Shown piece by piece: positions 11,626 to 15,384 of a DNA stretch of 37,013 nt. How positions within the stretch are numbered: the stretch's first letter is position 1; every line of letters starts with the position of its first letter. The translations under genes and the position numbers were made by a program. The notes below the pieces were generated by a model. The model searched no databases, had not been told where the DNA came from, and worked only from the letters and a program-made list of their open reading frames with translations. The stretch is from Nitrosomonadales bacterium (GTDB lineage Bacteria > Pseudomonadota > Gammaproteobacteria > Burkholderiales > Gallionellaceae): positions 1 to 37,013 of the forward strand of contig JACREB010000021.1 in assembly GCA_016218475.1 (NCBI GenBank), written 5' to 3'.

Positions 11626-11724
11626 CCGCAAGGCGAAAGCTCGCAATAATTCTTATCGGCGATTCAAAATATTAGAATCCGGCCTCCAATTTCGCTGCCC
11701 CAATTTCGCGTCCCCCGCACCTCG

Positions 11725-11773
11725 CCCTAACAACTGGAACGCTATTTGTTGCTGAACCTTGCAGGCATTAGGC
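11725..11773 (+). other. Possible decayed integron attC-like site
   Basis: CCCTAACAACTGGAACGC at the left and GCAGGCATTAGGC at the right resemble the ends of attC sites (consensus RYYYAAC and GTTRRRY), with ATT in place of GTT. At 49 bp it is shorter than usual and the inner arms pair poorly. It is listed only because a clear attC lies 1.7 kb downstream in the same orientation. Confidence 0.25.
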
Positions 11774-11852
11774 ATCAAACCTAACCCTCTTTTCCCATTT
11801 TTGCGCTGCTCACCGCTTGAACTGCGCATGTACTTGTGGCTGCTCGCTTCCG

Positions 11853-12128
11853 TTACAACCCGAGTTCACTGTGTGAGCCAAGGCGCACCAGATGCAAAAT
11901 CTTGTCGCCAAGTTTTTGGTATATCAACACGAGGTCGGGCTTGATGTGGCAATCACGGAAATCCTTCCACTCGCCAGTCAGCGCATGGTCGCGGCACCGC
12001 TCCGGTAATGGCCCGTCATTCGCCAGCATGGCGATGATGCCCAGCACATCTTCCGCCTTATATCGACCGGAACGGCTTACCCGCTTGAAATCGGCCTTGA
12101 ACGGTGATTGCCGGAAAATCTCCCTCAT
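11853..12128 (-). CDS. yafQ: YafQ-family toxin (RelE/ParE superfamily)
   Basis: The 91-aa protein ends with the YafQ signature RDCHIKPDLVLIYQ...LHLVRLGSHSEL. The family consists of ribosome-dependent mRNA interferases, and the conserved His residues in these motifs are the expected catalytic or RNA-contacting residues. It is coupled to the upstream antitoxin by a 4-bp ATGA overlap (12125-12128), the usual order antitoxin then toxin. The ORF looks intact. It lies in a transfer-prone patch between dnaE and the attC site. Confidence 0.88.
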   Translation of the reverse strand: MREIFRQSPFKADFKRVSRSGRYKAEDVLGIIAMLANDGPLPERCRDHALTGEWKDFRDCHIKPDLVLIYQKLGDKILHLVRLGSHSELGL

Positions 12129-12385
12129 CCCTTATGCCACTCGTCCGCAAGCTGCTCAAGCGTCACGCGCTCCAGCCCCTTACCGCTACGCGCCTGCCTC
12201 ATTGCCTTGATGGTTTTTTCGTTGGGAACGAGCGGCTCGAACGGCAGCGCCTTTTCTCGCGCCACGCGGGTCAGCATGATGCGGAAAGCATCGGAAACAG
12301 TCAGCCCCATCGCAGCCAACACGGCGGCGGCCTCTTCCTTGGTGTGCTCGTCAATGCGCGCACGGACAACAGTGTTAGTAGCCAT
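12125..12385 (-). CDS. dinJ: RelB/DinJ-family antitoxin
   Basis: The 86-aa protein has an N-terminal ribbon-helix-helix (TNTVVRARIDEHTKEEAAAVLAAMGLTVSDAFRIML), the DNA-binding and dimerisation domain of RelB/DinJ. A C-terminal segment that would wrap the toxin follows. It is the first gene of the pair, and the RNA start is probably controlled from the palindrome just upstream (12408-12420). Likely autoregulated by the antitoxin-toxin complex, as known for this family. Confidence 0.88.
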   Translation of the reverse strand: MATNTVVRARIDEHTKEEAAAVLAAMGLTVSDAFRIMLTRVAREKALPFEPLVPNEKTIKAMRQARSGKGLERVTLEQLADEWHKG

Positions 12386-12407
12386 ATTTACATCCTTTCA
12401 AAGTTGG

Positions 12408-12441
12408 GCTACATTGTAGCTCAATTTATAATTACCGGCAA
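12408..12441 (-). promoter_or_regulatory. Promoter and operator of the dinJ-yafQ pair
   Basis: Reading on the minus strand, TTGCCG (12441-12436) and TACAAT (12418-12413) are separated by exactly 17 bp. The -10 lies inside the palindrome GCTACAATGTAGC (12408-12420, six-base arms), a natural operator position for repression by the antitoxin. The start codon is about 22 bp further on, with AAAGGATG as ribosome binding site. Confidence 0.6.
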
Positions 12442-12463
12442 CACGCGCTTAGCCTTGTCCAAT

Positions 12464-12598
12464 GTGAGATGAGCCTGAACGAAAGGATGTGTTTCCAACG
12501 TGAGATGAGCTTGGAGGAGCGAAAGTTGGGATCATGGAGGCATGATCGTGACTTTACATACCCAAGGAAAGCCGCGAGGATCCATTTCGGAAATTTAG
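12464..12598 (+). mobile_element. Probable insertion-sequence end remnant
   Basis: GTGAGATGAGC occurs twice, 36 bp apart (12464-12474 and 12500-12510), like the internal repeats at IS ends. Then comes a short ORF (12542-12598) starting MIVTLHTQGKPRG that stops after 18 codons. The start resembles the opening of some DDE transposases as I recall them, but it is too short to assign. I treat it as debris. Confidence 0.3.
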
Positions 12599-12644
12599 CA
12601 TCAGATTTAGTCGTTGGCAAGCAACCGGATAGGCAAGGTTAATT

Positions 12645-12818
12645 CCGTGCTTATCGGGTTAGCTCCCAAATCATGCTGCATACCCCACGGCGGGGATGAT
12701 TCCCTTGGATTGGTGCCAGTATGGCCAACAATTTCCCCACAAAAACGCGGTTTCGCCCCACTTTTCGCCCCACAATTCTCCGTTGTAGAATCGTTGGGAG
12801 CTAACCCGATAAGCACGG
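12645..12818. repeat. 25-bp perfect inverted repeats around a ~124-bp core
   Basis: The right arm (12794-12818) begins TTGGGAGCTAACCCGATAAG and is the exact inverse of 12645-12669. The core contains a run of related CCCCAC segments (TTCCCCAC, CGCCCCAC, CGCCCCAC). It looks like a MITE or the ends of a collapsed element. Translated on the minus strand it gives an open but unrecognised tail (GELWGEKWGETAFLWG). No transposase is present. Confidence 0.65.
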
Positions 12819-12855
12819 TTAATTCTACGTCGCTCCCCGAAGAGCAGGTTTCGCC

Positions 12856-12899
12856 GTATTAACAATTTGTTTGACATGCTGAATAGTTGTTAATACAAT
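12856..12899 (+). promoter_or_regulatory. brnTA promoter with operator palindrome
   Basis: TTGACA (12871-12876) and TACAAT (12894-12899) are separated by 17 bp, a near-consensus sigma-70 promoter. Perfect 10-bp arms GTATTAACAA (12856-12865) and TTGTTAATAC (12887-12896) flank the -35 and overlap the -10, as expected for autorepression by BrnA. Transcription should begin around 12905-12907, almost on the brnT ATG. Confidence 0.75.
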
Positions 12900-12904
12900 T
12901 TGCC

Positions 12905-13177
12905 ATGATTACTTGGGATGAAAACAAACGGCAACGCAACATCCGCGAACACGGTCTGGATTTTGTAGGATGCGATGCGGTTTTTGATAGCCCGGTGGTC
13001 GCGTGGGACGATGACCGGAAAGCCTACGGTGAGTTGCGCATCAATTTGCTTGGTTTTCTCAATGGTATCGTTGTGCATTTGACATACACGGAACGCGGCG
13101 ATGATCTGCACGTCATTAGCTTGCGTAAGGCTGAAAAACATGAAATCCGCTACTTTGCCAAAGAACTTTCCAAATAG
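12905..13177 (+). CDS. brnT: BrnT-family ribonuclease toxin
   Basis: The 90-aa DUF497/BrnT protein starts MITWDENKRQRNIREHG and ends ISLRKAEKHEIRYFAK, both hallmark motifs of this RelE-like RNase fold. The ORF track starts at a TTG (12887), but that codon lies inside the promoter and operator, so ATG 12905 is preferred. With the -10 at 12894-12899 the message may be nearly leaderless. The following antitoxin gene overlaps it by 38 nt, the usual toxin-first order of brnTA. Confidence 0.88.
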   Translation: MITWDENKRQRNIREHGLDFVGCDAVFDSPVVAWDDDRKAYGELRINLLGFLNGIVVHLTYTERGDDLHVISLRKAEKHEIRYFAKELSK

Positions 13178-13466
13178 CCCAGAAGCGTGGGCAAAACTAA
13201 TTGCCGATGCTCCCGGCGAGGATCGCCCGCCCACCCATGAGGAAGAGGCGCACCGGAAAAACGCCGTGGTCAGCCGCTCCTTGCCCGAATTGCGCGAAAA
13301 GCTCGCTGCTCGTCGGCGTGGGGCGCAGAAAGCCCCAACCAAAATTCCAACCACTATCCGCTTTGATGCGGATGTTCTCGCGGAACTGAAAGCGTCCGGG
13401 CGCGGCTGGCAGACGCGCGTGAACGATGCCGTGCGCGAGTGGCTCAAGGCTCATTCACCCGTGTAG
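13140..13466 (+). CDS. brnA: BrnA-family antitoxin
   Basis: The 108-aa partner of BrnT has an acidic, variable N-terminus (APGEDRPPTHEEEAH). Its C-terminal ribbon-helix-helix is IPTTIRFDADVLAELKASGRGWQTRVNDAVREWL, the standard BrnA DNA-binding domain with the conserved GxGWQTR. The start at 13140 (MKSATLPKNF) is chosen over the upstream 13101 codon because it gives the usual domain layout. An attC site follows 28 bp after the stop, so the pair is in cassette orientation. Confidence 0.85.
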   Translation: MKSATLPKNFPNSPEAWAKLIADAPGEDRPPTHEEEAHRKNAVVSRSLPELREKLAARRRGAQKAPTKIPTTIRFDADVLAELKASGRGWQTRVNDAVREWLKAHSPV

Positions 13467-13494
13467 CTCATCGTCTCCCTCTCCGTAGTGAAAA

Positions 13495-13557
13495 GCCTAA
13501 CCCTGCGCTCAAGCGGGACTGCGCAAAAACGCGCAGCCCCTCACTTTTACGTTAGGC
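13495..13557 (+). other. Integron attC recombination site
   Basis: The 63-bp imperfect palindrome has R'' GCCTAAC (13495-13501) and R' GTTAGGC (13551-13557), which pair perfectly and fit the consensus RYYYAAC...GTTRRRY. Inside, GGG-A-CTGCGC pairs with GCGCAGCCCC, leaving one extrahelical base, and a short AAAAAC loop caps the stem. This is the architecture IntI recognises on the folded bottom strand. It sits just downstream of brnTA, in the position a cassette's own attC would occupy. No integrase gene is in the window. Confidence 0.85.
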
Positions 13558-13616
13558 TTCGAAGAAGCAAGTCCTCGGGTTATCGGCAAGCGACCCTCAG
13601 CCCCCCACGCACACTC

Positions 13617-13647
13617 TTGACTCTGTAGTATGGTACAGGGTTTAAAG
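13617..13647 (+). promoter_or_regulatory. MerR-type promoter with 19-bp spacer
   Basis: The -35 TTGACT (13617-13622) and a weak -10 TTAAAG (13642-13647) are separated by 19 bp, the over-long spacing that MerR-family activators correct by twisting DNA. The spacer contains the dyad CTGTA-(6 nt)-TACAG. It lies directly upstream of merR, so the regulator and the two genes after it are probably one autoregulated transcript. Confidence 0.75.
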
Positions 13648-13673
13648 TGTTGCTCATGAAGGGAGCCGCGCTT

Positions 13674-14084
13674 ATGTCTTCGTACACCATCGGTCAGTTG
13701 TCGCGCTTATCAGGAACGGGGGTAGAGACCATCCGTTACTACGAGCGCGAAGGTCTGATTTCCGAGCCACCACGCCGTGCGTCTGGTTACCGGCAATATC
13801 CAGAGGATACGCTGTCACGATTGCGTTTCATCCGTCACGCTAAAGCGTTGGGTTTTAGTTTAAAGGACATCAAAGAGCTATTGGAATTGCGCGTCGCGCC
13901 GGGAACCACCTGTGCGGACATACGCAAGCGTGCCGAGGCAAAAATCGCTGATGTGCGCGTCAAACTCGAAATGCTCCGGCAAATAGAGCAAGCCCTCGTG
14001 AAACTCACAACTACTTGCCGAGGGCGCGGGCCCATCAGCGATTGCCCCATTCTCGATGCTTTAGAGGAGCAAGACCCGACATGA
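13674..14084 (+). CDS. merR: MerR-family metal-responsive regulator (mercury type)
   Basis: The 136-aa protein has an N-terminal winged HTH (SYTIGQLSRLSGTGVETIRYYEREGLI), a long dimerisation helix and a metal-binding tail. Cys80, Cys115 and Cys124 have exactly the 35- and 9-residue spacing of Cys82/117/126, the Hg(II) ligands of Tn501 MerR. ATG 13674 is preferred over upstream GTG and ATG codons because GGGAG lies 8-13 bp before it and it gives the usual N-terminus. The stop overlaps the next start in ATGA. Mercury is the best guess; other thiophilic metals are possible. Confidence 0.85.
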   Translation: MSSYTIGQLSRLSGTGVETIRYYEREGLISEPPRRASGYRQYPEDTLSRLRFIRHAKALGFSLKDIKELLELRVAPGTTCADIRKRAEAKIADVRVKLEMLRQIEQALVKLTTTCRGRGPISDCPILDALEEQDPT

Positions 14085-14821
14085 CGACCGTAGAACTTAT
14101 ATATTTTCGCGAATGCCCCAACATATCTTTGGCACGTGAACGGCTGTTGCAAGCGTTCGCTGCCGCTGGAATCACCCCACAGTGGCAAGAATGGGAACGC
14201 AACGACCCCGCCAGCCCTACCCATGCATGCGCCTACGGCTCGCCCACCATTCTGGTGAACGGCCGCGACGTGACGGGCATTGAACCATCCACTGATAGCG
14301 CCGGTGCGTGTCGAGTGTACACACACGCATCGTCGACAACAGACGGTGCACCCAACGTGGACGCCATCGCAACGGCGCTGCGTAAACCCCATGCAACCGC
14401 ACGGGCACGGGCAGGCTGGCACAGTTCTTTTGCAGCCCTACCTGCCATCGCTGCAGCGGCGCTGCCCAAGCTAACGTGCCCGGCATGTTGGCCTGCGTAC
14501 TCTGGACTGCTGAGTTCTATGGGCGTGAGCTTCATCAACTACACACCGTATTTATTCCCGTTAACCGCAGCGTTTCTGCTGGTGTCTTTGATCGCGCTGG
14601 GTTGGCGGGCACCGCGACGCCGAGGCTACGGCTCCCTGTGGTTTGGCCTCGCGGCATCGGCCGTGCTCTTGGTAGGGAAATTTGCATTTGATTCCGACAT
14701 CGCCATGTACGCCGGAATGGCGGTATTGGTCGCCGCTTCGTTGTGGAACGCTTGGCCGCACGCCCGGCGAGAAGCGGCTGGAAATTGTCCGGCATGTGTT
14801 TCCACTGCCACTAAACCGTAA
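14081..14821 (+). CDS. Thioredoxin-like domain fused to MerC-like membrane protein
   Basis: The 246-aa protein appears to have two parts. Residues 1-105 look like a thioredoxin-fold domain (VELIYFRECPNISLARERL, later YGSPTILVNGRDVTG and GACRVY), with single Cys residues rather than a CXXC. Residues 115-235 hold about four hydrophobic segments beginning with LTCPACWPAYSGLLSSMGV, which resembles the CXXC membrane entry of MerC. It ends with a second CPAC near the C-terminus. I infer a role in mercury or other thiophilic metal uptake and hand-over under MerR control. The ORF track's start at 14015 is 22 codons too early; ATG 14081 overlaps merR. Confidence 0.6.
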   Translation: MTTVELIYFRECPNISLARERLLQAFAAAGITPQWQEWERNDPASPTHACAYGSPTILVNGRDVTGIEPSTDSAGACRVYTHASSTTDGAPNVDAIATALRKPHATARARAGWHSSFAALPAIAAAALPKLTCPACWPAYSGLLSSMGVSFINYTPYLFPLTAAFLLVSLIALGWRAPRRRGYGSLWFGLAASAVLLVGKFAFDSDIAMYAGMAVLVAASLWNAWPHARREAAGNCPACVSTATKP

Positions 14822-14831
14822 GGAGATTTTT

Positions 14832-15095
14832 ATGAACGCAAAACGAAAAGTCGAAGTTTTCAGCGCCGGTTGTCCCGTGTGCCAAGAAACCATCGATCTG
14901 GTCACGCGCCTCGCCTGTACTTCCTGCGAAGTCACCGTGTTAGACATGAAAAAGAACGATGTCGTACAGCGTGCGAAACAGCTCGGCATCCGTTCTGTTC
15001 CAGCCGTGGCGATTAACGGCCAGCTTGCTGGCTGCTGTGCCGGACGTGTACCCGACGAGAAAACGTTGCGAGCGACAGGTCTGGGGCAATCCTGA
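14832..15095 (+). CDS. Small thioredoxin/glutaredoxin-fold protein
   Basis: The 87-aa protein has an N-terminal redox motif (VEVFSAGCPVCQETIDLV), a cis-Pro loop RSVPAVAINGQ and extra Cys pairs (CTSC and GCC). ATG 14832 is preceded by AGGAG at 6 bp spacing; the longer ORF start is a shadow within the previous gene. As the third gene of the merR operon it probably shuttles metal or reducing equivalents in the cytosol. There is no merA or merP in the window, so it could be the soluble metal-binding partner of the membrane protein. Confidence 0.7.
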   Translation: MNAKRKVEVFSAGCPVCQETIDLVTRLACTSCEVTVLDMKKNDVVQRAKQLGIRSVPAVAINGQLAGCCAGRVPDEKTLRATGLGQS

Positions 15096-15384
15096 AACAG
15101 ATGTGAACGGCTATTGAAGTCCGCGTAAATATGGCCGCAAGGGCGAATTTTTGCCAAGCGGATAGCAAGAGCGTTTATGGGTTGTGCTGGTATGGCAGAA
15201 CGTGCCGCGCAATAACGCGCTGGCAAAATATCTGACAAGTCATGCAAAAACTTCTGTGTAAGTGCATTACGGGCGGTCAACCTGATACAACTCCGACAGG
15301 ATCATCAGTCTTTTGGTTGCTGAAATAGCTATGCATTCCACCCAGGTTGTTAAAGAGCGCCAGCCACGTTGGTATGTATTCAGA
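15096..15384. other. Intergenic region, no gene found
   Basis: The two flanking operons converge in this gap. I see no intact ORF with a plausible start, no further attC site and no clear terminator. The sequence is of ordinary composition. Confidence 0.5.

Follow-up and report, generated by a model that had tools for sequence, protein, structure and literature searches.

The window, that is the whole 37,013-nucleotide stretch of DNA analysed here, corresponds to contig C181 of a metagenome-assembled genome (MAG) of 2.3 Mb in 221 contigs, 86% complete and 0.7% contaminated. Next to dnaE, it carries a segment where toxin-antitoxin genes, mobile element remnants and a single putative integron recombination site follow one another, namely:

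11690..11767, plus strand: decayed remnant of the 5' end of an MFS transporter gene, which is divergent to dnaE in relatives
11768..11773, plus strand: TTAGGC, probable cassette left end, reverse complement of the R'' box of the attC below
11853..12128, minus strand: yafQ-family toxin gene (RelE superfamily; PF15738, E 3.6e-29)
12125..12385, minus strand: relB/dinJ-family antitoxin gene (TIGR02384, E 1.8e-23)
12451..12568, no strand assigned: terminal remnant of a dispersed insertion element, with 86-91% identical copies in congeners, several at contig ends
12645..12818, no strand assigned: MITE-like element of 174 bp, with perfect 25-bp terminal inverted repeats and TTAATT on both flanks
12856..12899, plus strand: brnTA promoter (TTGACA-17-TACAAT) enclosed by a perfect inverted repeat of 10 bp (GTATTAACAA/TTGTTAATAC), the probable operator
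12905..13177, plus strand: brnT, BrnT-family ribonuclease toxin (PF04365, E 4.7e-21)
13140..13466, plus strand: brnA, BrnA-family antitoxin (PF14384, E 5.7e-19), overlapping brnT, its ATG at 13140 read from the sequence
13495..13557, plus strand: attC, with R'' GCCTAAC at 13495-13501 and R' GTTAGGC at 13551-13557
15102-15225: dispersed repeat

The succession of BrnT then BrnA, the overlap of their open reading frames and the presence of PF04365 and PF14384, both above cut-off, are those of a type II BrnTA toxin-antitoxin system, and the BrnTA pair of the original prediction is confirmed by these Pfam matches. Just 5' of brnT, the sigma-70-type promoter is enclosed by the inverted repeat, and the identical palindrome is found 5' of a brnTA homologue (77% identity) in another Gallionella-type genome (L264), with no attC nearby. 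The closest brnTA homologue (G099) has no attC. On other attC-bearing contigs, BrnT homologues (28-46% identity) lie between attC sites (G010:C34) or directly before one (G005:C6). BrnTA is thus a recurrent cassette cargo in the genus, and the brnTA lineage of the window exists outside cassettes as well; with BrnT-type cassettes among those found in Gallionella arrays, the pair at hand is plausible as cassette cargo. From the brnA stop at 13466, the attC starts 28 bp later in the same orientation, a spacing normal for a cassette, so that the integron cassette arrangement initially announced, with attC directly after brnA, is indeed present.

The 63-bp palindrome (GCCTAACCCTGCGCTCAAGCGGGACTGCGCAAAAACGCGCAGCCCCTCACTTTTACGTTAGGC) has exactly the GCCTAAC and GTTAGGC ends originally described. 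Its R'' and R' boxes fit RYYYAAC/GTTRRRY with 7/7 pairs complementary, and the recombination cut is predicted after G13551. Besides the inner (L) stem, two unpaired extrahelical bases are present at canonical positions, C13514 and A13518 (bottom strand: G and T), where a single extrahelical base had been predicted along with the stem. In an attC, the bottom strand is expected to fold better than the top one, and folding gave -16.1 kcal/mol for the bottom strand of this site vs. -12.9 kcal/mol for the top.

Related sites were gathered by searching 3.3 kb around the attC against 60 related genomes, which returned dozens of 60-65-bp matches to exactly the attC stretch, many of them at regular spacing per contig; the named contigs with the same attC core belong largely to Gallionella, Gallionellaceae and other Nitrosomonadales MAGs, which makes Gallionella the probable genus of the source genome. 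Forty-five sites were collected and 41 aligned for structure counting. Under an R stem, an L stem and two extrahelical positions, 88.8% of the aligned cells pair, and pairing drops to 22-50% when the structure is slid along the alignment. Double-change cells amount to 60 vs. 20.8 after shuffling, with 12 pairs changed on both sides. With a covariance model built on all 41 sites (R1), the window attC reaches 84.1 bits and the next-best stretch of the window at most 12.3 bits. With a second model restricted to 29 sites from other genomes (R2), the source genome being excluded, it still scores 78.5 bits (E 2.9e-19 over 154 kb), which is the outcome of the covariance check initially proposed. Since the R' is part of the following cassette, strict regular expressions for attC overlooked almost every real site, and the covariance model was used instead. 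The Rfam scan of the window gave no match. The matches obtained by plasmid BLAST with the attC, some of them in cassette contexts, were all short (73-79%, E 0.4) and were set aside. Taken from sequence and predicted fold, it is near certain that 13495-13557 is a genuine attC of the Gallionella genus family. A chance palindrome or an unrelated repeat, with virtually no probability left, was rejected in view of the leave-out score, the extrahelical bases, the covariation and the homologous arrays beside intI; as for a high-copy palindrome foreign to cassettes, the case put forward as a refutation, the homologous sites actually form regular arrays, several of them adjoining intI.

Within the 37-kb contig, the genus covariance model found no second attC (next-best score 12 bits), no stretch lies within fewer than 8 mismatches of the 23 positions of the attI core, and the search for an intI fragment returned none. 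No integron integrase scored above cut-off in the source assembly, itself 86% complete; TIGR02249 matches below cut-off were attributed to other tyrosine recombinases, given that such matches also turn up in 14 control genomes. The announced absence of integrase and array thus holds for the contig and not genome-wide, as cassettes and arrays reside on other contigs: the proposed search for intI and further attC sites retrieved attC on C40, C68, C191, C174, C103, C3 and C213, and no intI. By covariance model, C40 opens with six attC that precede a hisC-like gene, and C68 has about nine weaker ones; C3 and C213 have two each, and single sites are found on C181 (the window), C191, C174 and C103, on the last of these close to the contig end. 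As the attC of C40, C68 and C103 sit near contig ends, the intI of the source genome may be merely unassembled. These arrays also provide the brnTA cassette with a plausible home source. The six-cassette array of C40 spans L030:417-3718, its intI being unassembled or lost. On the 4.9-kb contig C68 (L103), the attC are longer and divergent, probably a second array or integron type.

Regarding classification, a complete integron does not apply, since neither the contig nor the rest of the assembly yielded intI and the window has no attI-like core. CALIN (PMC9024848) likewise comprise attC without intI, and the source genome has such clusters on C40 and C68, both touching contig ends; IntegronFinder 2 requires at least two clustered attC for a CALIN (PMC9024848), whereas the window has one in 37 kb. 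The SALIN (PMC12690207) offers the closest description, i.e. one attC with its cargo gene and neither intI nor a second attC nearby, with the proviso that its definition is based on IntegronFinder whereas the window site was judged single by the genus covariance model. Among the possibilities initially listed (a stray cassette, a CALIN remnant or an off-target insertion), the stray single cassette has stood as a SALIN and the CALIN has not, with one attC only. The site is a stray cassette of a known kind, SALIN-type, and is as such mildly surprising. Other Gallionella chromosomal arrays share the attC family and the BrnT-type cargo with the window but hold several cassettes each, and intI is present in about half of the genomes. 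No description of the integron system of this group was found, none of the papers searched bringing together Gallionella, integron and attC.

The left end of the cassette was searched for from the composition of the arrays. There, the six bases that follow the cut are already part of the next cassette. Among 78 neighbours, the R' hexamer is the reverse complement of the R'' of the next site in 63 (9.0 expected). From this rule, a cassette ending in a GCCTAAC attC should start with TTAGGC, of which the plus strand of the window has two copies only, one inside the attC itself and the other at 11768. It is precisely at base 11768, upstream of dnaE, that homology to the dnaE-MFS region of three relatives (G016, G020 and G083) stops. 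In the relatives read, dnaE-MFS is an intact non-integron junction; in the window, only the first codons of the MFS gene are present, with a stop codon, and neither the remainder of the gene nor another copy was found in the source assembly. The chance of meeting TTAGGC within a few bases of the junction is estimated at about 1 in 1000. The base before the junction is A, as in relatives (GGCATC), whereas array sites have G in 94 of 96 cases; secondary integrase sites have been reported as GNT (PMC10127599). The hexamer precedes brnT by 1.1 kb, with other genes and elements in between, and the cassette proposed from 11768 would measure 1.78 kb and contain the opposite-strand yafQ/dinJ pair, whose relatives do not adjoin attC. 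On balance, the cassette probably starts at 11768, in which case an integrase-type event would have joined its left end to the dnaE side.

Besides, a diverged copy of one end of the MITE-like element is present at 12611-12645, and its 25-bp end also occurs at a contig end in G012. At 11782-11842 on the minus strand, right after yafQ, a weak attC-like stretch can be read (TGCGC..TCAAGCGG..GCGCAAAA, then GTTAGGT); this degenerate attC is not claimed, being the best of 1226 stretches by plain alignment, barely so, with no support from the covariance model.

To the right, the attC is followed by TTAGGCTTCG... and then by a merR-type operon and not by the remaining MFS gene. At 13674-15095 are encoded a merR-type regulator, a MerC-like membrane protein preceded by a DF-family domain, and lastly a thioredoxin-like protein whose gene has 91% DNA identity to G074. 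The Orn/Lys/Arg decarboxylase block begins at about 15373 and is conserved, with its decarboxylase-U32 neighbourhood intact. In the relatives where both are seen, dnaE and the decarboxylase are on different contigs. Gene order is disrupted to the left as well as to the right of the brnTA-attC segment. A clean insertion should have left the missing part of the MFS gene on the right flank; since it is not there, a single event does not suffice and at least two are needed.

Solitary cassettes are not restricted to this window. An attC of the same family is present in 55 of 61 genomes of the genus and intI in 31 of 61 congeners. Solitary attC with several kb clear on each side were found in G008, G009, G012, G016, G017, G026, G050, which belongs to another genus of the order, and twice in G079, a one-contig genome with these two sites, a cassette cluster and no intI; counted together, about nine solitary sites thus lie in other genomes, and the suggestion that cassette DNA is found outside integrons in this group is borne out. 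Several of these cassettes start right behind ...TTTTAGGGTGTCTACTTTACG|TT, the attI core adjoining intI in intact integrons of the group, and attI-like cores precede solitary cassettes at L234, L252, L255 and on C191 of the source genome. At L239:3416-3655, an N-terminal fragment of an integron integrase directly adjoins a solitary cassette, and this locus clearly reads as a decayed integron. Given such orphan attI-like sequences and the intI fragment, many solitary cassettes of the group are, as far as their flanks can tell, worn-down integrons and not off-target insertions. The window differs from them in having neither attI core nor intI fragment.

Within the source genome, C191 (L031:2318-3020) holds a second solitary cassette, made of a cation-efflux gene and an attC between polA and htpX, which are apart in the congeners checked. 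Its left end lies behind a degraded attI-like core, the only one within three mismatches in this genome; this core partly overlaps a dispersed repeat, making the case weaker than L234 or L239. A sequence of about 130 bp is kept up to the cassette start at L257:5685-5836 (minus strand) and L177:1323-1453, as well as in G025, G078 and G099, and is possibly a second attI type without intI. In G012, the cassette is preceded by such a sequence of about 130 bp, different from the attI core and common to another cassette start; an empty-site test of this solitary cassette did not prove off-target insertion, its flanks being mostly apart in other species and its left flank being a repeat found beside other cassettes.

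With these elements in hand, the window very probably holds a brnTA cassette stranded outside any integron. The explanation favoured as a whole, with some reserve, is that of a solitary integron cassette (SALIN) which came from the Gallionella cassette pool and was stranded beside dnaE. In this scenario, a non-attI target within the MFS gene would have recombined with attC in an integrase-type event, so that the left end of the cassette came to lie on the dnaE side. The remaining part of the MFS gene would have been lost in a second rearrangement, which would also have introduced the merR block and the side with the Orn/Lys/Arg decarboxylase, and the insertion element remnant and the MITE-like element would have landed inside, in between. 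With no intI nearby, the cassette would be frozen unless an integrase acts in trans, and its retention would be favoured by the addictive toxin-antitoxin pair and the promoter that it carries. The off-attI origin, taken separately, is a serious possibility falling a little short of probable. Off-target integrase activity rearranging DNA is documented (PMC10127599), and cassette insertion at non-classical attG sites was described by Loot et al. (2024; doi 10.1038/s41564-023-01548-y), as relayed by citing papers (PMC12901181, PMC12444791). By that account, the window is alike in having a cassette outside attI/attC arrays in a chromosome, with its left end inside a gene, and unlike in that the right junction does not restore the target, the MFS fragment being on the left only, that the base 5' of the cut is A and that the window is known from sequence alone. 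The cassette thus resembles an attG-type insertion (PMC12901181), short of proof.

A decayed integron or CALIN, reduced to the addictive brnTA cassette by loss of intI, attI and all other cassettes, is rather unlikely here, even with worn attI-like cores (L234, L252, L255, C191) and an integrase remnant (L239) at solitary cassettes elsewhere; the R' TTAGGC right of the attC is also typical of a following cassette, and the stretch after yafQ could be counted on the same side, for the little its narrow first rank is worth. Against it are set the lack in the window of any attI-like core, intI fragment or second attC detected by the covariance model, and the intact dnaE-MFS junction of the relatives. 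The rearranged right side makes it impossible to tell off-attI insertion from integron decay at this site. Passive carriage of brnTA-attC, with no integrase involved here, either on an insertion element or through dispersed repeats recombining by homology, would fit the broken gene order and the remnant, MITE-like element and repeat surrounding the segment; it is improbable, as none of these elements is at the 11768 junction, which bears instead the predicted cassette-start hexamer, so rarely expected there by chance. Still less likely is an assembly artefact, whereby the contig would join unrelated parts of one genome at a repeat: the assembly is fragmented, dispersed repeats are present at 12451 and 15102, and dnaE and the decarboxylase are on separate contigs in relatives, but the attC has only about 35 bp in common with the copies nearest to it, its distance from brnA is that of a cassette and the decarboxylase-U32 neighbourhood is intact and conserved.

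Beyond the stranded SALIN-type cassette favoured for the window, a wider and doubtful proposal is that the Gallionella integrase, lost from some species, may have repeatedly seeded single, often self-expressed cassettes at non-attI sites, and that recombination of such stray attC with other targets may have reshuffled core gene order, the window then being a product thereof at the dnaE-MFS breakpoint. Since several apparent stray cassettes are decayed integrons, with a worn attI or an intI fragment, caution is required and the flanks have to be read before an off-target insertion is called. The window provides a natural case of a cassette outside an integron in a largely uncultured, iron-oxidising group, and the broader pattern of solitary cassettes across Gallionella holds more interest than this single case. 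With stranded cassettes of this kind, it can be tested whether extra-integron spread, shown in laboratory strains, lastingly marks wild genomes too.
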